IMG/VR virus record: IMGVR_UViG_3300010354_000010
Coordinates: 1-39,419 of that record
Length of the DNA stretch: 39,419 bases
Strand: one strand, 5' to 3'
Origin: a virus
Below, piece after piece: positions 4,432 through 23,687 of this stretch. The notes under the pieces are model-generated. The model saw only the letters and a program-made list of their open reading frames with translations, searched no databases and had not been told where the DNA came from. Numbering within the stretch: position 1 is the stretch's first letter; each line of letters opens with the position of its first letter. Position numbers and translations under genes: made by a program.

Positions 4432-5093
4432 CACAAGCACAAAAGACGCCCAGCCCTCCCAGGAGGACCGGCTGCACACTGTGACCACGGCCCCTCACTC
4501 CGAGGAGAAGCCCCAAACACAGCGCACAGGAGCAACATGCTCGCGTCTCTTAGCGCACCCAACCAACGTGTGCAGGTGTAGCGCAGTGTGTAGCAGCACG
4601 TCAAGTGTGGCGCGCTTCGGAGGGGCTGAGTGCGCGCTACGGGGGCCATTTGCGGGGAAAATTTTCAGGTGGGGGGATGAGTTGTAGCGAAAGTTCCTGG
4701 ACAGAGGCGGACCCCCTCCCCCCCTGTCTGGTTTGGCTACGGTCAACCGAGCCCGGCTGCGTTGGTGGCCACGATTACAGAGGCGACTCCATATGACACA
4801 CCTTGTATGATGTTATGGAATGCGCAAAGTGAGCCACGGAGCACGGCAAAGTAGGGCAAGGAGAGGGGCGCGGGAGGGTTGCGCAGGGTTGCTTGGGGGT
4901 GAGGTCTCGGCCACGCATTCCACCCCTGCCCTATGACACAGCATGTCCTACCCTGCTCGCACCCACTCTCCGCACTACGCTCGCACCTGGTCCCCGGAAC
5001 CGCACCCTACGCACCCACAAAAAACCTACAGGTCAGCTCGTTTTTGCAATTTTTACTAAACCTTCCCACATATGCTGCCGATATATCGTTGCC
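4432..5093. other. Divergent intergenic region between the minus operon and the plus cluster
   Basis: About 660 bases with no credible gene. It is GC-rich and contains homopurine/homopyrimidine patches (GGTGGGGGGATGAG near 4671; CCCCCTCCCCCCC near 4712) and an inverted repeat TCCATA/TATGGA at 4788-4793/4814-4819. It must hold promoters for both directions. TTGCAA at 5044-5049 with TATGCT at 5071-5076 could be part of a plus-strand promoter, but the spacing (21) is poor. Reading frames that cross this stretch have no recognisable product. Confidence 0.6.
5079..5088. promoter_or_regulatory. 10-bp palindrome before the first plus-strand gene
   Basis: CGATATATCG is a perfect palindrome ending five bases before ATG 5094, where an SD site would be expected and none is present. 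It could be an operator or a -10 region (GATATA). Short palindromes of this size can occur by chance. Confidence 0.25.
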
Positions 5094-5291: not shown

Positions 5292-5374
5292 TCCTCACCC
5301 ATCCGCCTCTCTCGCACGAGGGGGGCGGCAGGGTGCGGATAACCTGCACCACTAACAACCAAACAAACTACACC

Positions 5375-6046
5375 ATGAACATCCACCTGACCTTTAAAAG
5401 CGCCAACGTCAAGACGGGACCGATACCCGTTAGTACATCCTCGGCCGATACTTGCCCCGACAGTTGCCCCCTTAAAGCGGGAGGTTGCTACGCCAAATCA
5501 GGACCACTCGGCATGCACTGGTCCAAAGTCACACAAGACAAGCGAGGGGGTAACCTCACCACCTTTGTGCAGCAGGTGCGCACCTTAGACGCTGGCCAGA
5601 TCTGGCGTCACAATGCCGCTGGCGATCTACCGGGCAAAGGTGATCGCATCAATCAGGGTGCGCTTAAACGTATTGTGTCAGCCAATAAGGGTAAACGTGG
5701 GTACACCTACACCCACAAGCCTCCGACGCTTGGCAATAATGGCAAGGCAATCGCCGACGCTAACGCTAAGGGGTTCACCGTTAACCTGAGCGGCAACAGC
5801 CTAGGGCACGCCGATGAGCTTAAAGCGCTTGGCGTCGGTCCCGTTGTCGCAATTGTCCCCGAGGATGCACCCGACAAGGGCGTCACACCTGCCGGAAACC
5901 GTTGGATTACCTGCCCTGCTCAGACTCGCGACAACGTGACGTGTGCGACGTGTAAACTCTGCTCAGTGGCTACTCGTTCCGTGATCGTGGCGTTTCGCGC
6001 CCACGGAACCAGCAAACGCAAAGCCGAAGCGATCGCCACCAAGTAA
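5375..6046 (+). CDS. Cysteine-rich phage protein, DUF7227/gp88-like
   Basis: 223 residues from ATG 5375 (MNIHLTFKSANVKTGPIPV). A GTG at 5333 after a G-rich sequence is an alternative start, but family members as I recall them begin near the TGPIPVS motif. Hallmarks seen: TCPDSCPL..GGCYA, WRHNAAGDLPG, a FTVNLSGNS segment and a C-terminal TCATCKLC cluster. These match a widespread phage family annotated DUF7227 or gp88-like, of unknown function. The paired cysteine clusters suggest metal or Fe-S binding (inference). No SD site before ATG. Longest gene of the plus-strand cluster. Confidence 0.75.
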   Translation: MNIHLTFKSANVKTGPIPVSTSSADTCPDSCPLKAGGCYAKSGPLGMHWSKVTQDKRGGNLTTFVQQVRTLDAGQIWRHNAAGDLPGKGDRINQGALKRIVSANKGKRGYTYTHKPPTLGNNGKAIADANAKGFTVNLSGNSLGHADELKALGVGPVVAIVPEDAPDKGVTPAGNRWITCPAQTRDNVTCATCKLCSVATRSVIVAFRAHGTSKRKAEAIATK

Positions 6047-9135: not shown

Positions 9136-9368
9136 TCTGCCTCCCAGAATTGTTGTTCTTGTTCATCTTCATTTCTGATCACGTCGCCGTTCTCGATCAC
9201 CTCACGGGCTTTCTCGTTGGCGTGTGACTGACTGTACGCGATGATGAGACCGGCATCCGTCTCATAGACGTAAGCATTACGCCAGTCGGCCCGGCAACGT
9301 ATGCCAGAAGCTGCGTGCTGCCACTGGGGTTGCGCCCAGTTAACTAGCTGCGGTAATTTGGATTTCAT
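9132..9368 (-). CDS. Small hypothetical protein
   Basis: 78 residues, MKSKLPQLVNWAQPQWQH to EQEQQFWEAE. It overlaps the methyltransferase end by 29 bases in another frame, and its stop overlaps the DpdA-like start as ATGA. The sequence (SGIRCRADWRNAYVYETDAG, then LIIAYSQSHANEKAR) suggests a small antiparallel beta sheet with a C-terminal helix. No family recognised; it sits between two DNA-modification genes. Confidence 0.6.
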   Translation of the reverse strand: MKSKLPQLVNWAQPQWQHAASGIRCRADWRNAYVYETDAGLIIAYSQSHANEKAREVIENGDVIRNEDEQEQQFWEAE

Positions 9369-10095
9369 TTATTAGTGTTCTAAAGGCTAACTCAGCCGTT
9401 GCTGGCACTACTCCATTTCCGAGGAGGCGCAATCTGTCCACCCGATTGGAAGCCCCATCATTATCTCCACAAACTCCGGGTTGAGTGGACCAGGTTCTCC
9501 AAGCTCTCCACGTCGAGCCCTCGCTTCCAAGCATCTGCTCTGCTGGCTGTTCCCGTTCAACCTGAAGCTGTCCTCGTTCGCACAAGGAGTTGGCAAGTAT
9601 GAAGACTCGTCTTCGCTTGTGTGGTGCGCCAACTTCAACCGCTGAGAATACTTCCCACGACACCTTGTAACCCATCTCTTCCAGATCGCTGATGACGCTG
9701 GAGAGTCCCAACGAGATGTGTCCCTCGACGTTCTCAAAGAAACAGATTCTTGGTTTAAGAATGGCAATTCCTTCTGCAATGAAAGGCCAAAGATGTCGCG
9801 AGTCTTCTGTTCCGGCTCGCTTGCCGGCGCTACTGAATGGTTGGCACGGGTAGCCGCCAGACACGATGTCCACCATGCCTCGAAAGCTTTCCCAAGGGAA
9901 CGACTTGAGATCGCTCCAGATCGGAGCCGCATCCAGTTGCCCCGCTTCCATTCGCGCAAGAAGGTTTTCAACTGCAAAAGCTTCGATCTCACTGTAAGCG
10001 ATCGTGCGCATGTTACGGAACACTCTCTTGAGTCCAAGGTCAATACCTCCGTACCCGGTGCATAAGCTGATATGAGTGATTTGGGTAGTATCCAC
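9340..10095 (-). CDS. dcm: C5 cytosine-specific DNA methyltransferase
   Basis: 251 residues. Motif I SLCTGYGGIDLGL (10-22) binds SAM, motif IV GGYPCQPFSS (80-89) has the catalytic Cys84, motif VI is FFENVEG (119-125), motif VIII HKRRRVF (159-165), and motifs IX/X RLRLLGNGVVPATA lie near the end. All catalytic parts are present; the target-recognition region between motifs VIII and IX is short (about 40 residues), so specificity may be simple. No partner restriction enzyme is visible, consistent with an orphan anti-restriction methylase. A second long open frame on the same strand is a shadow of this gene. Confidence 0.92.
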   Translation of the reverse strand: MDTTQITHISLCTGYGGIDLGLKRVFRNMRTIAYSEIEAFAVENLLARMEAGQLDAAPIWSDLKSFPWESFRGMVDIVSGGYPCQPFSSAGKRAGTEDSRHLWPFIAEGIAILKPRICFFENVEGHISLGLSSVISDLEEMGYKVSWEVFSAVEVGAPHKRRRVFILANSLCERGQLQVEREQPAEQMLGSEGSTWRAWRTWSTQPGVCGDNDGASNRVDRLRLLGNGVVPATAELAFRTLINEIQITAAS

Positions 10096-10096
10096 A

Positions 10097-10648
10097 TCAT
10101 TTCGGCTTCATAGCTTGCATGAAAGCGTCGCCCACTTCCGCAGTGGTGTGGACGTGCACATGCTGATGCAGGCTCTCCGGGCCACGGTTGCGCTCCAGTG
10201 CAGCCAGCTTGTCTGTGGCGATTCCCATGGCTAGCACACTGTCTTTGGCACTCATCTCGGGCATAAGTTCAATCACCCTGTCCGCAGCCCCAGCAGCCAC
10301 CTGCTGGAGCTTTTCCTTGAGACTAGCCTGGTACATCTTTTCCCTAAACTGGCTATCGTGATCCAGCCCATGCGTCTTGATGGCGTGCACGACCGTCTGC
10401 GAAACGCCGGTCTTCTCCACAATGGCCCGGATGCTGTAACCCTCGCAGTAGAGTTGAATGACTTGTTTCTTCATGTCTTCAGACACACCGGCAAGGTAAC
10501 CCTGACCGTTGACCTTCTCGATGCCTGTCACGCCCATGACGTGGTCCTCAATGCGCACGTTGGCCAGTCCGGCAAGCTGCCTTGCACGGGTCTCCGGGCT
10601 TTTGTACACACGCTTCTTCTGCGGCTTCTTATTCTTCGGATCTTTCAT
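10097..10648 (-). CDS. HTH protein, possible small terminase or regulator
   Basis: 183 residues. A basic N-terminus (KNKKPQKKRVYKSPETRAR) is followed by a helix-turn-helix at about 63-94 (QLYCEGYSIRAIVEKTGVSQ). A helical region and the segment SVLAMGIATDKLAALERNRG follow; this order of HTH and helical oligomerisation region is reminiscent of phage small terminases. It lies far from terL, among DNA-modification genes, so a transcriptional regulator is equally possible. Overlaps its upstream neighbour by 20 bases and ends one base before the methyltransferase start. Confidence 0.6.
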   Translation of the reverse strand: MKDPKNKKPQKKRVYKSPETRARQLAGLANVRIEDHVMGVTGIEKVNGQGYLAGVSEDMKKQVIQLYCEGYSIRAIVEKTGVSQTVVHAIKTHGLDHDSQFREKMYQASLKEKLQQVAAGAADRVIELMPEMSAKDSVLAMGIATDKLAALERNRGPESLHQHVHVHTTAEVGDAFMQAMKPK

Positions 10649-11300: not shown

Positions 11301-11727
11301 TGGCTTTTCGAGCTGCTCTCCACTCTCGTAGCTTACGAGCGACCTCCGCTTTTTGTTCCGGCGTGAGCTTGGCGCGCCAGTCTTTGCTGCGTTGACGATG
11401 AGCTTCGACGTCTTTGGTTCGGTACAGTCGGTTGTGTTCATTTTTGAGTTTTTGTTTTTCTTCTGCGGTTTGTTTTGGCCGTTTTGTCCTCGGCACTTTG
11501 ATTGGTCGGTCATTGCTTGGTTCGGATTTAGCTTTTTTCTCAACAATCTTTTTCTTGGGCTGGATGAACCTGCCCTTGTAGCTGAACGTAATGCCACGGC
11601 GACGCTCCCAATCTCGGAGCGCCTTAATCATGGAGCCTTGCTTGTCCACGATGTCCGGCATGTACACGGTGTTCCCAGAAGGGTGGTTGTCTTGAAGTGC
11701 GATAGTTCTTTGTGCTGCGAATCTCAT
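11275..11727 (-). CDS. Very basic, helical hypothetical protein
   Basis: 150 residues; start overlaps the helicase fragment stop as ATGA. The N-terminal part (ALQDNHPSGNTVYMPD) is followed by a long Lys/Arg/Glu-rich region: KAKSEPSNDRPIKVPRTKR, then a predicted coiled helix (TAEEKQKLKNEHNRLYRTKD to EQKAEVARKLREWRAARKA). Probably nucleic-acid binding; similar Lys-rich tails occur in phage proteins beside HNH or HTH domains, but no enzyme motif is visible. Confidence 0.65.
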   Translation of the reverse strand: MRFAAQRTIALQDNHPSGNTVYMPDIVDKQGSMIKALRDWERRRGITFSYKGRFIQPKKKIVEKKAKSEPSNDRPIKVPRTKRPKQTAEEKQKLKNEHNRLYRTKDVEAHRQRSKDWRAKLTPEQKAEVARKLREWRAARKANANVKNGV

Positions 11728-12305
11728 GAGTTTAAGAAGCTGGCTGTTCTGCCGTTGAAACGTAGGTGTGTGCTAACCCCACATGGACCGTTGCGCTGGA
11801 ACGGAATGCTAACCTTACGGTTCTCTTCGCCGTCGATCTCGATGGCCATGATACAGGTGGCATCCTGCTGAATGGCACGGGACTCACGGGCTTTTCCTTG
11901 CTCGTTAAGCTGCGTGATGCCGATGACTAGGCAACCCAGCTCCAGCCCAAGCAGACGCAGCGACCGGGAGACCTCGGCCACCTCACGCTCACGAGTACTG
12001 TCCTTACCCATTTCACAACGCACGAGCTGGATGTAATCGATGAACATCACACCCAGGCCGACGCTGCTCTTCGACATGGCCCGCGCCACAGAACAAATGC
12101 TCTGAATGTCGTACAGGTCGTCTCGGATAATCAGGTTCGATCGGTGCAGCACGTTGAGTGCACGCTGCATTCCAGAAAGCTCGCCATCGGTTTTAACACC
12201 TTCAGCCAGTGACCGCAGCGACACGCCACCAAGACGTGCGACTAGACGGTCGATGATCTGGCTAGCCGGCATTTCGAGGCTGATGATTAAAACACCCTTC
12301 TTCAT
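11724..12305 (-). CDS. dnaB-C: DnaB-family replicative helicase, C-terminal half
   Basis: 193 residues starting exactly at the motif 1a strand: VLIISLEMP (5-13) with the catalytic Glu. Then Walker B VMFIDYIQLV (86-95), the motif 3 region GITQLNEQGKARESRA (129-144), and the Arg-finger/beta-hairpin end IPFQRNGP (167-174). There is no Walker A and no N-terminal domain; these are encoded at 15215-15874. The start ATG has GAGG upstream and an in-frame stop two codons before it, and overlaps the preceding stop (ATGA), so it is a complete cistron and not a truncated reading. Together with the other half it covers a normal DnaB core. Confidence 0.88.
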   Translation of the reverse strand: MKKGVLIISLEMPASQIIDRLVARLGGVSLRSLAEGVKTDGELSGMQRALNVLHRSNLIIRDDLYDIQSICSVARAMSKSSVGLGVMFIDYIQLVRCEMGKDSTREREVAEVSRSLRLLGLELGCLVIGITQLNEQGKARESRAIQQDATCIMAIEIDGEENRKVSIPFQRNGPCGVSTHLRFNGRTASFLNS

Positions 12306-12562
12306 CGTCTAAACCTCTTCCCGTTGTCCCGCCTAATTTCCTTCGAGTTGTGTGTCTTGTGCCCGTCGTACACAGTCACGAGCAGATCGACCTCGATCTC
12401 CTCGGTAGACTGATTGTGTGGCAGGATAGCCAACTCGTCGATAAGGGCCTGACACGCGGCTTTCTCGGCCACCAGCAGGACATCCTGAGTGAGCTTAGGA
12501 CGCGGCAGGTGTTCGTAACCGTCACGCACGCGGGTGCGCCGGAGTGCAACGTACTGTTTCAT
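12302..12562 (-). CDS. Hypothetical protein
   Basis: 86 residues, MKQYVALRRTRVRDGYEHLP to GKRFRR, ATGA-coupled at both ends. Basic ends flank an acidic helix (AEKAACQALIDELAILP) and a beta stretch (IEVDLLVTVYDGHK). No family recognised. It directly precedes the C-terminal helicase half, so it should be tested for a role in helicase assembly or loading (inference from position only). Confidence 0.65.
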   Translation of the reverse strand: MKQYVALRRTRVRDGYEHLPRPKLTQDVLLVAEKAACQALIDELAILPHNQSTEEIEVDLLVTVYDGHKTHNSKEIRRDNGKRFRR

Positions 12563-12786
12563 TGGATGAATACACTGCGTCCCTCTTTAATTAGGCTTTC
12601 AGAAACGCCAACTTTTCTGAGTATGCCCTCCATGGATTCAGCATAAGCCTTCCATGCATCTAGTTCGACCTGTAGCTTTTCTGCTTTGCTTTCGGCCTCG
12701 TCTAAATCGGAATTCAGAATACAAGGATCACCACAATCGCAGCGCGCATCATTAATCATTCTAACGTGGTTTGAATCAGTGCTCAT
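12559..12786 (-). CDS. Small coiled-coil hypothetical protein
   Basis: 75 residues from ATG 12786 (MSTDSNHVRMIND), chosen because it overlaps the previous stop as ATGA behind GGAAAGGAA. A CDCGDPC cysteine cluster near residue 16 is followed by a predicted coiled coil (SDLDEAESKAEKLQVELDAW). No family recognised. Confidence 0.6.
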   Translation of the reverse strand: MSTDSNHVRMINDARCDCGDPCILNSDLDEAESKAEKLQVELDAWKAYAESMEGILRKVGVSESLIKEGRSVFIQ

Positions 12787-13121
12787 TTCCTTTCTTCCCA
12801 TTTTCCTAGCGTCTTCAAAAAAGCCTCTGCTCGTTGCCGTGCTGTTGCATCTAGCATGTCGATTGCTTCCATGCGCTGCCAGTTGCAGGGATTTAATAGC
12901 TTTCCAAGCTCATCCACATAGTCGTGCCGCATGTAGTAATCTTTGCGCCACAAGTACTGCTCGGCCCCATACATGTCGTTTAGATCACCACAAAAGTTAG
13001 GCACTTCGAGTAAATTGCCTGCGTGTTTTCCCACCCAAACATTTGGGTTTTTTGAGTGCTGACATACGTCTTCCCACCCACACGCCTCTGCAATCGCCGC
13101 GTTGATTTGTTTGTCGGTCAT
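12783..13121 (-). CDS. Phage ABA-sandwich-type protein, copy 2
   Basis: 112 residues from ATG 13121, preceded by GGGAGGAATAAA, one of the best SD sites in the genome. The MTDKQINAAIAEACGW start and AEAFLKTLGKWEE end match the small phage proteins of the ABA-sandwich family (Pfam PF18066 as I recall it). It is paralogous to the next gene upstream, which starts MTDEQINTAIAKEIGW and ends AEAFLRVFGKWEE. Function of the family is unknown. Confidence 0.7.
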   Translation of the reverse strand: MTDKQINAAIAEACGWEDVCQHSKNPNVWVGKHAGNLLEVPNFCGDLNDMYGAEQYLWRKDYYMRHDYVDELGKLLNPCNWQRMEAIDMLDATARQRAEAFLKTLGKWEERK

Positions 13122-13122
13122 T

Positions 13123-13380
13123 TTATTCCTCCCATTTGCCAAACACTCTCAGAAAAGCCTCTGCGCGTGCAGGCGTTGGAGCAATAATTGCATTGAAGGC
13201 GCCTGGGTGGTCTTTGCCCCAAACGTGATACAACTGCTCAATGTACTGTTCTTCAAAACATCCAGCCAATGTGACTTCAGCTTGGTGCATGTCATCTGCA
13301 CATTGTGCAAAATTTAATGGTCGCTTTGGATTCCATCCAATCTCTTTGGCAATCGCTGTGTTTATTTGTTCGTCAGTCAT
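13123..13380 (-). CDS. Phage ABA-sandwich-type protein, copy 1
   Basis: 85 residues, MTDEQINTAIAKEIGWNPK to FLRVFGKWEE. Shares start and end motifs with its downstream neighbour, indicating tandem duplication followed by divergence of the middle; this copy is about 27 residues shorter. ATGA overlap with the preceding gene. Family function unknown. Confidence 0.7.
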   Translation of the reverse strand: MTDEQINTAIAKEIGWNPKRPLNFAQCADDMHQAEVTLAGCFEEQYIEQLYHVWGKDHPGAFNAIIAPTPARAEAFLRVFGKWEE

Positions 13381-13571
13381 ATTAGTTGTTCTAGTATGTC
13401 TTTAATTTGATTGTTCATTGTTGAAAGTGAGTCTTTTACCTCTTCCCTCCAATTATTTATGTACCCACAGTAAACTTGACATCCTGCGTATTCATCCAGA
13501 TATCGCTCCAATCTAAGCAGGGCGTCAGTTAACTCATGCACATTGTCGCTTATTGACTTCTTGTCAGTCAT
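13377..13571 (-). CDS. Small helical hypothetical protein
   Basis: 64 residues from ATG 13571, one base after the exonuclease stop, with CGAGGT as a possible SD site. Two helices (NVHELTDALLRLERYLDEYA and a C-terminal LSTMNNQIKDILEQL) joined by a CQVYCGYINNW loop. No family recognised; possibly a coiled-coil partner of a neighbour. Confidence 0.6.
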   Translation of the reverse strand: MTDKKSISDNVHELTDALLRLERYLDEYAGCQVYCGYINNWREEVKDSLSTMNNQIKDILEQLI

Positions 13572-13572
13572 G

Positions 13573-14337
13573 TTAGTACCTCGGCAGGATGAGCTTGAAC
13601 TCTGGCAGTCCCGGCCATTCCTGTGCAGTCTCGCACCGCTTGAAGTGCGCGAGTTCCTCCTCGATCTTGGCGTTAGCGTTGGAGAGGATCTCGCTGCCAG
13701 CACGCATGAACTGCGCCAGATGCGGGGCCTCAGTGTCTACCACAAGAAACCAGAAACCCGGCACCTCATCCAAATCCATCGCAGCCTTCAGGCCGTACTG
13801 ATACCAAGCAGCCTGCACATCGTATCTGAACCGATAGAAAGCACTCTCAAAGTTACGGATGTCGTTGGTGGTCTTCAGATCCACCAAGCATTCCTCCCCG
13901 TTGATACTGACGATCATGTCGGGACGCCCCTTACAAGCAACACCGTCACGTTCCCAGAACATTGAGCACTCGATGTCGTCGTCCTGATAGACGCAGTGCT
14001 CCATGAGAGGGGCACATGACTGCAAGCAACCGTCAATGACAGCAGCTTCCTCACGGGTAACGATGGTCTTGCCAAGGTTATCCTCACAGAACGCTTGCCA
14101 CTCTTCCTTGCCGGCCTTGGTGCGCCGGTCTACTTCAGGCCCCACTGCGTAATCGCAACGCCCCTCAAGCACCAGCGAGTGAATGAGTGTGCCAATCTCC
14201 ATCGATCGGCTAGGCTTCCATTCCTGCGCCTTGCGGTGAATGTAGTAGCTGGGAGCAACAGCAAAGTTGTCCAGCTCGTGTTTGGAGAGACCGGGCAGTG
14301 CGCGGTACTCGGCCATAGGTAAGTTGTGTTTGATCAT
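13573..14337 (-). CDS. RecE/exodeoxyribonuclease VIII-like PD-(D/E)XK nuclease
   Basis: 254 residues. Active-site pattern of the RecE/Cas4-type nucleases: GTLIH (49-53), GRPD with D140, VDLKTT with D153 and K155, and YDVQAAWYQ (172-180, motif QxxxY). Expected to resect double-stranded ends for recombination. A RecT-like annealing partner was not found; the OB-fold protein at 17678-18355 could play a related part. Starts near MIKHNLPMAEYRALPG, with the usual Y-x-x-L-P-G opening of phage RecE-like proteins. ATGA overlap with the kinase gene on the upstream side. Confidence 0.85.
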   Translation of the reverse strand: MIKHNLPMAEYRALPGLSKHELDNFAVAPSYYIHRKAQEWKPSRSMEIGTLIHSLVLEGRCDYAVGPEVDRRTKAGKEEWQAFCEDNLGKTIVTREEAAVIDGCLQSCAPLMEHCVYQDDDIECSMFWERDGVACKGRPDMIVSINGEECLVDLKTTNDIRNFESAFYRFRYDVQAAWYQYGLKAAMDLDEVPGFWFLVVDTEAPHLAQFMRAGSEILSNANAKIEEELAHFKRCETAQEWPGLPEFKLILPRY

Positions 14338-14801
14338 TGAATTAGTGATTTGATTTTGTTGTGAAGGTCTTCGATGCTGCCATCGTTGACTACTTCATAG
14401 TCGGCAGCAATCTCACTTTGGTTTAGCTCTGATTCGTGATTTTCTGCGATTTGTCCTGGGCGGACGATGCGGACGATGATTCCGCCACCGTTGCGGATGT
14501 AGTCAGCCTCGTTCTGGAAGCGGACGTCTGTGAACACGATTGGGCCCGGATCTATCTCAGACTGAATCATTAGCTTAACGTAGTTGATCCAGACTTCTGG
14601 GTCATACTGTCTCCCAGCCATGCCTATGTTTTGCAGCAAAGCTCGTCCTCGTTCGTCCTTTTTTCCATCCCAACCAAACCCCCATGCCAAGCCTTTTACC
14701 CTGTTGGCAAAGGCATAGCGCACATAGCCTAAAGGATAGAGAGCTTTAGCCGCAGTGTCCTTGCCGGATCCAGCCAGTCCGATAAGTCCGATGTTTTTCA
14801 T
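14334..14801 (-). CDS. Deoxynucleoside monophosphate kinase-like protein
   Basis: 155 residues from ATG 14801 (MKNIGLIGLAGSGKDT), with the P-loop GLAGSGKDT at 8-16. It follows the pattern of phage dNMP kinases (AAKALYPLGYVRYAFANRVK; VFTDVRFQNEADYI). Expected to phosphorylate dNMPs to dNDPs for phage DNA synthesis. The acceptor nucleotide cannot be told from the sequence. Its start overlaps the stop of the small membrane protein gene as ATGA. Confidence 0.85.
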   Translation of the reverse strand: MKNIGLIGLAGSGKDTAAKALYPLGYVRYAFANRVKGLAWGFGWDGKKDERGRALLQNIGMAGRQYDPEVWINYVKLMIQSEIDPGPIVFTDVRFQNEADYIRNGGGIIVRIVRPGQIAENHESELNQSEIAADYEVVNDGSIEDLHNKIKSLIQ

Positions 14802-14920
14802 AGCCGCGGTCCTTCGGTGCACCTGCATGGTGGCGAGATGAGACGTGTGGTTCTGATGTGGATGGCTAGACCTAGATAGGTCAGCCCGATGATTGCGATA
14901 ATGATGGCTAGTTTCCTCAT
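14798..14920 (-). CDS. 40-residue membrane peptide
   Basis: MRKLAIIIAIIGLTYLGLAI forms one membrane helix, followed by a polar, Cys-containing tail (TTRLISPPCRCTEGPRL). Overlaps both neighbours as ATGA, which supports a real coupled gene. No function recognised. Confidence 0.55.
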   Translation of the reverse strand: MRKLAIIIAIIGLTYLGLAIHIRTTRLISPPCRCTEGPRL

Positions 14921-15228
14921 GGGTTCACCTCCAGTGCGCTGCAACCAACCACTGCACCGTGTTCGTTGCGAATAAGTTTTGCAGGACTGCAAACGTCTTT
15001 ACGTTCAGGGACAAACATGCGGACAAGTCCGGCGACAATGTACATGGTATCTGGTCTAGGTTCAGGCAGGTTGCTCACGCCCAGGTTGCGGGCAATTACA
15101 ATGGGTATTCCGTTGATGTCCCCGTGGTGGACCATCTGGGTGTTGACTCGGGCAATGTACCCGCTGGGCTCCACGGACTCATGGCCCGTGATGACAATTT
15201 TGTGTGGTGTTAGGTTAACGAGTTTCAT
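14917..15228 (-). CDS. Conserved phage protein of the MKLVNLTPH type
   Basis: 103 residues. The start MKLVNLTPHKIVITGHE, the central PEPRPDTMYIVAGLVRMF and the end GAVVGCSALE follow a pattern I recognise from many phage genomes (small beta-rich proteins starting with NLTPH), without a known function. It overlaps the end of the helicase N-terminal half by 14 bases. Confidence 0.7.
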   Translation of the reverse strand: MKLVNLTPHKIVITGHESVEPSGYIARVNTQMVHHGDINGIPIVIARNLGVSNLPEPRPDTMYIVAGLVRMFVPERKDVCSPAKLIRNEHGAVVGCSALEVNP

Positions 15229-15874
15229 TCAGAATGTTGGCTACTATGTTGAGGGCAAGCATCGTCTTGCCGCTTTTCTCTGGGCCACCGATAACAAGGA
15301 AGTCCCCGTAACGGATGGGCGTTAGGTTATCGAGTTTGTCGTATCCTGTGCGAATGCGTTGGGTTTGATCGTCACCCTCCTGGTAGCGAGTGATCGCATC
15401 CATGATCAATGCTTTCGTGTCGAGCTTGGCAGGTGGCGTCATCTCAGACCGGATGCGCTCAATCCCGGTGGAGAGTGTGTTCACCAGATCCACCGTTGTG
15501 ACGTCTGTTGCTTCAATCTGCTTCTGTCCCTCGGCTAGCATCTTGGCTACTGCTCTCCGCTTTGCAGCAGACTTGACGATGTCCATCAACTCCCGCAGTG
15601 CGGAAGCCACAGGCATGAGCGTGTAGAGGTCCGTCAACTGATGGAACTGCACATGTTCGTTTCGCTCACGCAGACGCTCAAATATGACCCGCACATCGCA
15701 GACGGCTCGACGGGAAACTTGATCGAGGACAATCTCGACGACGTTCCGGGATAAGCCATCTGCAATGTAGCTTGGGTTGAAGTTGGCATCGCTGATTGTG
15801 TTCAGGACAAGCTCAGGATGGTTGAGCGTGATGCTGGCAATGCCACGTTCCGACTCGGTTGGTGATTCGAGCAT
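15215..15874 (-). CDS. dnaB-N: DnaB-family replicative helicase, N-terminal half with Walker A
   Basis: 219 residues covering the DnaB N-terminal helical domain (about 1-100), the linker helix and the start of the RecA-like core: RTGYDKLDN (175-183), GDFLVIGGPEKSGKT (190-204, Walker A) and the following helix ALNIVANILNETR to the stop. The protein ends where motif 1a should follow; that part begins at the ATG of 11724-12305. No intein or intron sequence is seen at the end. Alone it can bind but hardly hydrolyse ATP. Start is coupled (TAATG) to the preceding initiator-like gene. Confidence 0.88.
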   Translation of the reverse strand: MLESPTESERGIASITLNHPELVLNTISDANFNPSYIADGLSRNVVEIVLDQVSRRAVCDVRVIFERLRERNEHVQFHQLTDLYTLMPVASALRELMDIVKSAAKRRAVAKMLAEGQKQIEATDVTTVDLVNTLSTGIERIRSEMTPPAKLDTKALIMDAITRYQEGDDQTQRIRTGYDKLDNLTPIRYGDFLVIGGPEKSGKTMLALNIVANILNETR

Positions 15875-16959: not shown

Positions 16960-17343
16960 CTATTTGGAAGCATCAACAGCCATAATGTCCTCTGTTAGCT
17001 GTGTGACGTTTATGCGCTTCCTGAAGATTTGAGCGTAATTGTTAAGTTCTTGTCTATAGTTCGTTACATCCCTCACATAAAGCGGGCAACATAGATGATG
17101 CCAGCCCTTGGTTTCGCAAAAACCAAATGCACAAAAAAGCTCGTTAAGAGTCTTTTTGCCCATCTGTCTGATTTTAAGGATGTGCTTATTTTGAAGCCAT
17201 TCTTTGACCTGATCAGCAGATTCGCAATGTTTGTCGAGCAGCTTAGATGCCCTTAGACTGATGGGGCGTATACCAAACTTCTCGGCAACTTGCCTGCAAA
17301 ACTGAATGTTAGCTTTCTCCTCCTTGGATAAATGACGTTTCAT
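16960..17343 (-). CDS. Alpha-CTD-like protein with a capsid-derived C-terminal tail
   Basis: 127 residues. Residues about 25-75 resemble the C-terminal domain of RNA polymerase alpha (ISLRASKLLDK, then IRQMGKKTLNELFCAFGF; E. coli has the same LxVRSANCL...GKKSLTE pattern). A Cys/His patch (CETKGWHHLCC) follows. The last 33 residues are homologous to the phage's own capsid protein: 95-123 align with capsid 80-108 at 17 of 29 identical positions, including NYAQIFR and LT.DI. Nearly all shared residues use different codons, so this is not a recent copy. Start is ATGA-coupled to the nuclease gene. Role unknown. Confidence 0.75.
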   Translation of the reverse strand: MKRHLSKEEKANIQFCRQVAEKFGIRPISLRASKLLDKHCESADQVKEWLQNKHILKIRQMGKKTLNELFCAFGFCETKGWHHLCCPLYVRDVTNYRQELNNYAQIFRKRINVTQLTEDIMAVDASK

Positions 17344-17684
17344 TTTGGCAGCTTATTTAGCCCGTCCATGCCGTCGCGCAAGAGCTTGAAGAACAACTCG
17401 CTGCTCATAGTTACGCGCCATGGCTTGTGATCCTTCTTGTGAGCGATAACCCAGTCCTTGAGTGTGCCAGCGTCTCGCTTGGCTTGGTCGATAGCACCGT
17501 CAAGGTTGAGCGACTGCACGCACTTTACCTCAAAGTGAAGCCCGGCAAGCTCCTCGCAGATAACGTCTGGCGAGTCTGTGCCCCCGGCAAACTGCTGGCC
17601 CCGCCTTGCGGTGAAGCCAGCCTCGCGGAGTTCATCGCGCCACATGCGTTCACCGCGGGCGCCTTTCTGGCGGCTGTTTACCAC
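17340..17684 (-). CDS. PD-(D/E)XK resolvase-like nuclease
   Basis: 114 residues from GTG 17684, overlapping the previous stop. The layout KGARGERMW (E12), SPDV (D40), HFEVKC (E52 and K54) and a downstream helix with Gln (DQAKRDAG) is that of Holliday-junction-resolvase-like phage nucleases. Expected to resolve or trim recombination intermediates before packaging. Substrate is inferred from family. Confidence 0.8.
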   Translation of the reverse strand: MVNSRQKGARGERMWRDELREAGFTARRGQQFAGGTDSPDVICEELAGLHFEVKCVQSLNLDGAIDQAKRDAGTLKDWVIAHKKDHKPWRVTMSSELFFKLLRDGMDGLNKLPK

Positions 17685-18355
17685 CCAGCCTCCTTGCTGA
17701 ACTCGTCAACGTCATCGCCCATCGGGATCTCGTCAGGCACTTCAACGGGAGCAGCCTTAGCCGCCGTAGCCGGGAAGACGTTCCAGAGGTTGGCCTTGTC
17801 AGCGGAGATGAACAGGCTCGAGCGCAGTGCTTGCAAGCCTTCAGCGTCCGTGATGCCTGCTTCGCCAGCGGCCCACTTTGCTGCTTTGGCGCACTCAACA
17901 TAGAGCTGGGCGCGTTGGAAGATAAGACGCTTGGCATCTGCCGGGGTGCCGCCGCCTTGACCGCTGGCGAGAGCAGCGTTCACCTTGTTGGCAGTCTCAG
18001 CCTGACGGAACGCGCCGGCAGCAGAGTCAATGATCGCAGCCTTCTCGGTGATGTTTAGCTCGTTGCTGTCGGAGTGCTTGGAGTACTTAACCGACAAACC
18101 CTGCAAACCTTTTGCGCCACCTTGGGACTTAATGGTCACCGTCTGGCCGATCAGGTCCTTAATCTCCTCGTTGGTCCAAAAGGAGGCACGCACCTCTCCG
18201 GTAGAGTCCTTTAGCACAGCAGCCTGCACGCGCCACGGCCCGTACTTACCCTCGCCAGTCTTTGGCGGGAAGGCAGCCTTAACCTGGACTGACATTTCAC
18301 CGATGATCGAACCGTCGGCCAGATTGGCCAAGTCAGCTATTTTTGCTACTTTCAT
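17678..18355 (-). CDS. OB-fold single-stranded DNA-binding protein
   Basis: 225 residues. An OB-fold of the RPA/nucleotide-binding type spans about 10-95 (IIGEMSVQVKAAFPP, GPWRVQAAVLKD, GEVRASFWTNEEI, IGQTVTIKSQGG). An Ala-rich helical region follows, then an acidic tail (VPDEIPMGDDVDEF), as in phage SSBs whose acidic end recruits partners. First gene of the replication operon, after a 100-base gap; the ATG has an A-rich leader and no SD site. Confidence 0.8.
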   Translation of the reverse strand: MKVAKIADLANLADGSIIGEMSVQVKAAFPPKTGEGKYGPWRVQAAVLKDSTGEVRASFWTNEEIKDLIGQTVTIKSQGGAKGLQGLSVKYSKHSDSNELNITEKAAIIDSAAGAFRQAETANKVNAALASGQGGGTPADAKRLIFQRAQLYVECAKAAKWAAGEAGITDAEGLQALRSSLFISADKANLWNVFPATAAKAAPVEVPDEIPMGDDVDEFSKEAGW

Positions 18356-22656: not shown

Positions 22657-22972
22657 AAAATGCTCTCCTAGCTTCTAAACAGAGTGGACTGCCTGCCTTA
22701 AATTGCCTGCAAGCCTGTGGACGGTTTTCGTAAATTGTACACGAAACTGACTCGCCAACAACTCCAGACAGAGCAGCACACCTGTTGTTGCACGTCTTGA
22801 GCAGTGGGTAGTCATCTCGAATTAACTCTGGTGGTATACCTGTAGCGTCAGCCCTGTCCCGGCGAAGCACCGGCCAACTCCATTTGTGGCTGCAACATGC
22901 TCCGCAGGTTCTGCAATCCGGATCGGATGTTGCAATACTCTGCGACGGGTTGGTCGTGCAATACATGCTCAT
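22649..22972 (-). CDS. YkgJ-like cysteine-cluster protein
   Basis: 107 residues (ATG 22966, two codons later, is an alternative start). DCRTCGACC at 19-27 is the CxxCxxCC signature of the YkgJ/UPF0153 zinc- or iron-chelating family; further cysteines lie in CNNRCAALSG and in CTIYENRPQACRQFKAG, as in that family. It overlaps the PAPS-reductase-like gene by 125 bases in a different frame. The signature itself is inside the overlap, so the overlap must be real if both proteins are made. Possibly a metal-binding partner of that enzyme. Confidence 0.75.
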   Translation of the reverse strand: MSMYCTTNPSQSIATSDPDCRTCGACCSHKWSWPVLRRDRADATGIPPELIRDDYPLLKTCNNRCAALSGVVGESVSCTIYENRPQACRQFKAGSPLCLEARRAFYG

Positions 22973-23687
22973 GCACGTTCTCTACTTGGATGCCAAACTT
23001 TGGGCAATCCACAAACTTGCCAAGTCGCTTGTCCACGCAGTTGAAACAGGCATGAACGTAGTCAGAGTTCATGTGCTTGTCTAACTTGCTAACCACGTTC
23101 TCATCGTACCTGTTCGTGTCAAAGGCCACGTCGTTGGTCTTGATGTGCGAAGAGATGTCCTGGTCGGTCCAGTTGCGCAGCGGGAACCACATCTCTGTGT
23201 TTGGCCCCAAAATCTTTTTGTCTATCTCAAGCGGAACAGTTCCAGTTAAAGGATCTTCGTCGCTACTTTTGTGCCCACACAGAAGCACGTCAAAGTCAGA
23301 AACGATGTGCCCCTTGGGACGGTTGAGCCACTCTCTGCCGCATACCCAAGGCATCCCGGCTTCCCGCGGCTCGGTGCCGCGCATGACCTTCAGGCTTCCC
23401 TGCCCGAGCGAGTAGGTCTCGCACACGTCTATGCGGTTGTTCCCGTGTGTTAACGCCACAGACACAGGAACCCAATCGTGAACAGTCAGCCCTAGATTCT
23501 CTTGTACAAGGTGATGAAAGGCGTACTTGTGCGATAGAAACGGCAGCTTGAAGTGAATTACCTCAATGTCAGGCCGGGCCTTTCTGGCGAGATCGAGCAG
23601 CACAGTGCTATCCTTGCCGCCACTCCAAAGAACAGCAGGACGTTTTGCATGTTTAAGTGCAAGTAATATAATTTGTTCAGCAGTCAT
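22848..23687 (-). CDS. PAPS-reductase/N-type ATP-pyrophosphatase-like protein
   Basis: 279 residues. The PP-loop SGGKDST at 22-28 with a preceding strand (RPAVLW), NWTDQDI (172-178), and a C-terminal CFNC...CPK site (C214, C217, C228) are typical of phosphoadenosine phosphosulfate reductase-like proteins, including phage and DndC-type relatives. Classical CysH uses a C-terminal ECG motif, absent here, so sulfate reduction is doubtful; nucleotide-activating chemistry such as thiolation is possible. Sits between internal virion genes as an accessory insertion. Starts as TAATG with the preceding gene. Confidence 0.8.
   Translation of the reverse strand: MTAEQIILLALKHAKRPAVLWSGGKDSTVLLDLARKARPDIEVIHFKLPFLSHKYAFHHLVQENLGLTVHDWVPVSVALTHGNNRIDVCETYSLGQGSLKVMRGTEPREAGMPWVCGREWLNRPKGHIVSDFDVLLCGHKSSDEDPLTGTVPLEIDKKILGPNTEMWFPLRNWTDQDISSHIKTNDVAFDTNRYDENVVSKLDKHMNSDYVHACFNCVDKRLGKFVDCPKFGIQVENVHEHVLHDQPVAEYCNIRSGLQNLRSMLQPQMELAGASPGQG

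Follow-up and report, generated by a model that had tools for sequence, protein, structure and literature searches.

DnaB is the universal replicative helicase of bacteria, with an ATP site that is commonly viewed as a RecA fold that cannot be divided. The 39,419-base virus record IMGVR_UViG_3300010354_000010, here called the window, is complete as a phage genome, bounded by an exact direct terminal repeat of 123 bp, and it carries a DnaB homologue in two genes, dnaB-N and dnaB-C, which are divided inside that site and separated by a cassette of nine other genes. How does a phage obtain a helicase from a gene cut at this point? Our answer is that the two genes very probably encode one DnaB-type replicative helicase as two polypeptides, which would co-fold without covalent joining. 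The two genes and their motifs, the latter read from the sequence, are as follows.

15215 to 15874, minus strand: dnaB-N, 219 residues; DnaB N-terminal domain, linker helix, Walker A strand, P-loop and first helix.
15263 to 15289, minus strand: Walker A, GGPEKSGKT, the nucleotide-binding loop of the proposed composite site.
11724 to 12305, minus strand: dnaB-C, 193 residues; RecA-like core without the P-loop, with catalytic Glu11, Walker B Asp90, motif 3 Gln132 and QRNG Arg171.
12024 to 12050, minus strand: Walker B, VMFIDYIQL.
11904 to 11918, minus strand: motif 3, ITQLN.
11787 to 11798, minus strand: QRNG, the DnaB arginine-finger region by homology.

An earlier note on this DNA had described both open reading frames (ORFs), and their coordinates and ends were borne out on reading the sequence: TAATG at the start of dnaB-N, ATGA at the start of dnaB-C and an in-frame TAG-ACG-ATG are all present. 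The C-terminal end of dnaB-N reads GGPEKSGKTMLALNIVANILNETR and is followed by a stop, and dnaB-C begins MKKGVLIISLEMP and contains FIDYIQL (Walker B), ITQLN (motif 3) and QRNG. Against the DnaB_C profile (PF03796), the N half covers model positions 2–45 (E 2.6e-4) and the C half positions 49–254 (E 1.6e-29; 103.5 bits against a curated cut-off of 27). The two halves cover positions 31–222 and 224–432 of the 435 positions in TIGR00665, and their family profiles cover residues 11–230 and 233–439 of the solved DnaB 2r6a. The N half matches PF00772 at E 0.0051, under the curated cut-off of that family, and its fold matches the N-terminal domain of Mtb DnaB (2r5u) with a TMt of 0.74–0.79; the top fold match for each half alone is DnaB. 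Judged from these alignments, the halves together cover one helicase save for one or two residues. The cut lies where a loop links the P-loop helix to the strand that follows, with no core element lost. The TIGR00665 scores are 45.2 bits for the N half and 97.4 bits for the C half, both under the equivalog cut-off of 385 bits; on these scores we take the halves to be a DnaB homologue and do not call them a TIGR00665 equivalog. That each half falls under this DnaB cut-off matters for annotation.

Compared with DnaB (TIGR00665, PF03796, phrog_19; structures 2r6a, 4esv and 6bbm), the N-terminal domain, linker, RecA core, motifs and order of elements are the same, whereas here there are two proteins, and the loop after motif 3 is shorter. 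The loop leading from motif 3 to the RES motif (C-half residues 132–142; window about 11880–11912) lacks ~11 residues of the canonical length, which possibly alters a DNA-binding loop. The earlier claim that the joined halves would give one normal DnaB holds as far as the halves complement each other along DnaB; it goes slightly too far, since the hypothetical joined chain would have ~412 residues against ~440–470 for DnaB and contains the shortened loop.

Is the division peculiar to this record? From viral contigs we collected 77 distinct loci with both halves, by searches with each half and with profiles. All 77 are split, in the order N then C, with the same break position and a gap of 1323–3785 bp, and none is fused; the search for a fused form or the same split, proposed in the earlier note, gave the split alone among these loci. 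Contig ends account for most of the loci in which a single half was found. When a C-half motif was searched as a DNA pattern, 79 distinct contexts came up, and in none of them does a P-loop share its frame; the same split is present on one contig of a bacterial metagenome-assembled genome (Pedosphaera, Verrucomicrobiota; L118). Every one of the 26 near-complete relatives has exactly two partial DnaB_C matches, which are the two parts, and a DnaB_C search found no third DnaB in these 26 or in the window, so that the second intact helicase which the earlier note had kept in view is absent from them. Because the halves match complementary parts of DnaB and the same split recurs in 77 distinct loci, chance resemblance is excluded. 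No close relative was found among cultured phages, where the best match of the C half is at ~36% (P1 Ban) and the N half has no match at E 1e-5. The carriers are a group of mostly uncultured phages, and the split is a fixed trait of that group.

Metagenome contigs can be chimeric, and an assembly error, or else a gene in decay, could in principle leave a gene in two pieces. Independent contigs from many samples have this order and break in common; together with the 123-bp terminal repeat and strong purifying selection, measured as dN/dS (non-synonymous to synonymous substitution rates), this leaves the two explanations with next to no chance, and we rejected both. The assembly rearrangement raised in the earlier note falls with them, given the recurrence and the terminal repeat.

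Are both halves maintained as parts of one active site? Median dN/dS is 0.049 for the N half and 0.039 for the C half, and it is 0.020 for the Walker A segment, the most constrained part of the N half. The Walker A GG...SGKT is invariant in 70/70 aligned sequences, and catalytic Glu11, Walker B Asp90, motif 3 Gln132 and Arg171 show no variation wherever they are aligned, even though the proteins diverge by up to 60% (N) and 42% (C). Met1 of the C half is invariant as well. Both halves are under strong purifying selection. Because dN/dS is low and these residues are invariant, we conclude that neither half is decaying and that a complete site is kept over two chains.

Among the window proteins examined we recognised neither a DNA polymerase nor a primase. 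The window encodes an SSB-like protein (17678–18355) and a RusA-like resolvase (17340–17684), and the combination of these with a helicase and no recognised polymerase or primase suggests that the host replisome is used. This leads to a different account of the locus, in which the split helicase is no longer a motor and one or both parts act as a decoy or loader for the host DnaB, with the host helicase doing the replication. The probable use of host replication proteins and the partly shortened loop after motif 3 would both suit such a role. A decoy, however, would need no complete active site divided over two chains, and the Walker A, catalytic Glu, Walker B, motif 3 and Arg residues are invariant across the two chains, with the tightest constraint in the N half on the Walker A segment itself. 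We consider the loss of motor function improbable.

Are the halves rejoined before they act? Fractured genes with split inteins are known, and trans-spliced introns, a split intein or another ligation could join these halves into one DnaB after transcription or translation. The clean break, its invariant position and the loss of almost nothing of the DnaB alignment are what such joining would leave. Neither end, however, carries intein residues. The C half always starts from an ATG of its own, and the N tail differs between loci in length as well as in sequence; it consists of a few to ~30 ordinary residues, with no intein parts with Cys, Ser or Thr after the junction. No Rfam intron was found in the window or in ten relatives, in agreement with the earlier observation that no intein or intron is visible, and complementarity between the inner flanks is at chance (7.3 versus 7.0 bases); both results count against joining, which we hold to be quite unlikely. 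Alternatively, the cassette could be excised from the DNA during infection, rejoining the gene as in some interrupted bacterial genes, and its variation in content and size would be in keeping with this. Such excision is most improbable: no fused gene occurs among 77 pairs or 79 motif contexts, bases common to both break points are at chance (7.0 versus 6.7), the cassette and the scanned window proteins include no recognised recombinase, and an exonuclease gene that is always present would be lost. Because we found no intein residue, Rfam intron, break-point repeat, flank complementarity or joined contig, splicing or rejoining is unlikely.

We thus favor two separate chains, as the earlier note had done; the recurrence in 77/77 loci, the selection and invariant residues on both chains, and the lack of a fused or third copy and of splicing signals all support this. 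The N chain would provide the DnaB N-terminal (collar) domain, the linker and a beta-strand/P-loop/helix element, and the C chain would provide the remaining RecA core with the catalytic Glu, Walker B, motif 3 and the QRNG arginine. The sheet of the C chain would accept the P-loop strand and helix from the N chain, and each composite ATP site would draw its P-loop from one chain, its catalytic residues from the partner and its arginine finger from the C chain next to it; six such heterodimers would make up the active ring. In AF2 predictions of the N half alone, the collar and linker have a predicted local distance difference test score (pLDDT) mostly of 80–93 and the conserved P-loop segment of ~42. 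The C half alone is predicted with confidence only in its first half, and the pLDDT of its last third is mostly <50. These low-confidence parts would fit chains that need each other; shallow alignments also lower the values, and the predictions are supportive only.

Both chains would come from one minus-strand gene cluster, the C chain probably by start/stop coupling. The C half always begins with ATG. In 37 of the 77 loci this start shares bases with the stop of an ORF lying upstream (ATGA), and in 12 it comes 18 bases after one, which suggests that the C chain is made by translational coupling of this kind. A Shine-Dalgarno-like site precedes the N-half start in 15/77.

Several points weigh against the two-chain helicase. 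A Shine-Dalgarno-like site is present at the C-half start in 8/77 loci, which is background level, and 26/77 C-half starts have no qualifying ORF end nearby upstream, so that initiation of the C chain is explained only partly. The divergence of the N and C halves is matched (r 0.97), and shared descent alone would also give this. The nearest fused DnaB proteins are only ~30–36% identical, too distant to fix the ancestral form. Finally, the data show the gene structure, homology, conservation, selection and lack of a fused or third copy; association and co-folding of the chains, the hexamer, its ATPase and unwinding activity, the coupling and the cause of the split are what we infer.

What lies between the two halves? 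The cassette and four of its genes are listed below.

12302 to 15228, minus strand: the intervening cassette, nine genes, variable among relatives.
14917 to 15228, minus strand: small protein MKLVNLTPHKI..., whose start overlaps the dnaB-N stop; family in 37/77 gaps.
14334 to 14828, minus strand: deoxynucleoside monophosphate kinase (longest frame); family in 22/77 gaps.
13573 to 14337, minus strand: exonuclease VIII-like PD-(D/E)XK nuclease (DUF3799, E 3e-23; phrog_412, E 1.7e-52).
12302 to 12562, minus strand: 86-residue ORF and likely coupling partner, with a stop that overlaps the start of dnaB-C (ATGA); family in 44/77 gaps.

The exonuclease VIII-like gene is the only one found in all 77 gaps; the remaining gap genes come and go, and among relatives the other eight intervening genes of the cassette can be dispensed with. 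The suggestion that neighbours serve as assembly factors gained no positive evidence, the one constant gene encoding this nuclease. The split may have come about through insertion of the exonuclease gene, or selection may act against the loss of that gene. We also considered that the split is adaptive, with separate supply of the chains gating assembly and the exonuclease in the gap taking part through stoichiometry, timing or contact, tying fork firing to recombination; this we regard as doubtful.

The cassette and its surroundings show some further features. Small proteins at 12783–13142 and 13123–13380 (minus strand), found also in relatives L049, L060, L079 and L083, have a common MTD-QIN start and RAEAFL..GKWEE end and are apparently tandem paralogues, judged by these shared ends. 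Their KWEE codons (AAATGGGAGGAG or similar) put a Shine-Dalgarno-like GGAGGA directly before the start of the following gene, and the DNA element bearing GGAGGA also precedes other genes in relatives. A cytosine-5 DNA methyltransferase (9340–10095, minus strand) lies downstream of dnaB-C and is overlapped in another frame by a 230-residue ORF (9408–10100); in 24/77 relatives a methyltransferase of this kind is inside the helicase gap. One relative (L029) has a tRNA gene (4706–4777, plus strand; Rfam 73.8 bits) upstream of the N half. Elsewhere in the window, a DUF7227 protein (E 4.5e-93) is encoded at 5333–6046 on the plus strand, in contrast to nearly all of the other recognisable genes, which lie on the minus strand. 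A PAPS reductase-domain protein is encoded at 22848–23687 (minus strand), with no other sulfur gene recognised in the phage.

How did the division arise? A tree of C domains places every split sequence in a single group, which has a long stem and a support of 100/100. Phages related by TerL but outside the group (terminase ~33% identity), including Phage C75C1, have a single DnaB ORF of ~430–454 residues (13 records). On these grounds the split looks derived and probably goes back to a single old event in the phage group. The C75C1 helicase is 30% identical to the C half and need not be the direct ancestral form; no close fused sister DnaB was found among the contigs and cultured phages searched.

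Enzymes in two pieces have been described in other phages. Aeh1 NrdA, gp43A/43B of Aeromonas phage 25 and gp39/gp60 of T4 are each one enzyme made of two separately translated polypeptides that associate (PMC2988022). The NrdA and topoisomerase genes are split inside a functionally critical region, as is the case here, and the locus resembles genes in pieces in that the gene is split with both parts intact and under purifying selection. For these known splits a homing endonuclease or an untranslated spacer was reported (PMC2988022), whereas the spacer here is 1.3–3.8 kb of ordinary genes, and the enzyme is a ring helicase whose ATP site itself is divided. A homing endonuclease as the cause is not seen today, an HNH-like ORF being read from the sequence of one gap in 77 (L105). 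In jumbo phages the catalytic module of DNA polymerase III is split into two standalone proteins inferred to reassemble (PMC7824862), a different enzyme in which no ATP site is divided between chains. In genes fractured by split inteins, too, essential replication genes of phages lie in two pieces separated by other genes, but the present locus has no intein halves and its products probably stay separate. Two further families with no assigned function, phrog_23150 (217 residues, ending at Walker A), which matches only the N half at 43–211, and phrog_11530, whose match is confined to the middle of the C half, may point to other split helicases.

We found no report of a split DnaB in the open-access literature. 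Split phage enzymes were already known; what is new is a ring helicase divided through its ATP site. The locus presents a natural, ancient two-chain DnaB cut inside that site, and it shows where the fold tolerates a break. It would also offer a ready-made split helicase for experiments on assembly and subunit stoichiometry, in which the N and C parts could be mutated independently within the ring. If the two-chain helicase is true, a ring-shaped motor would join the split phage enzymes already known.
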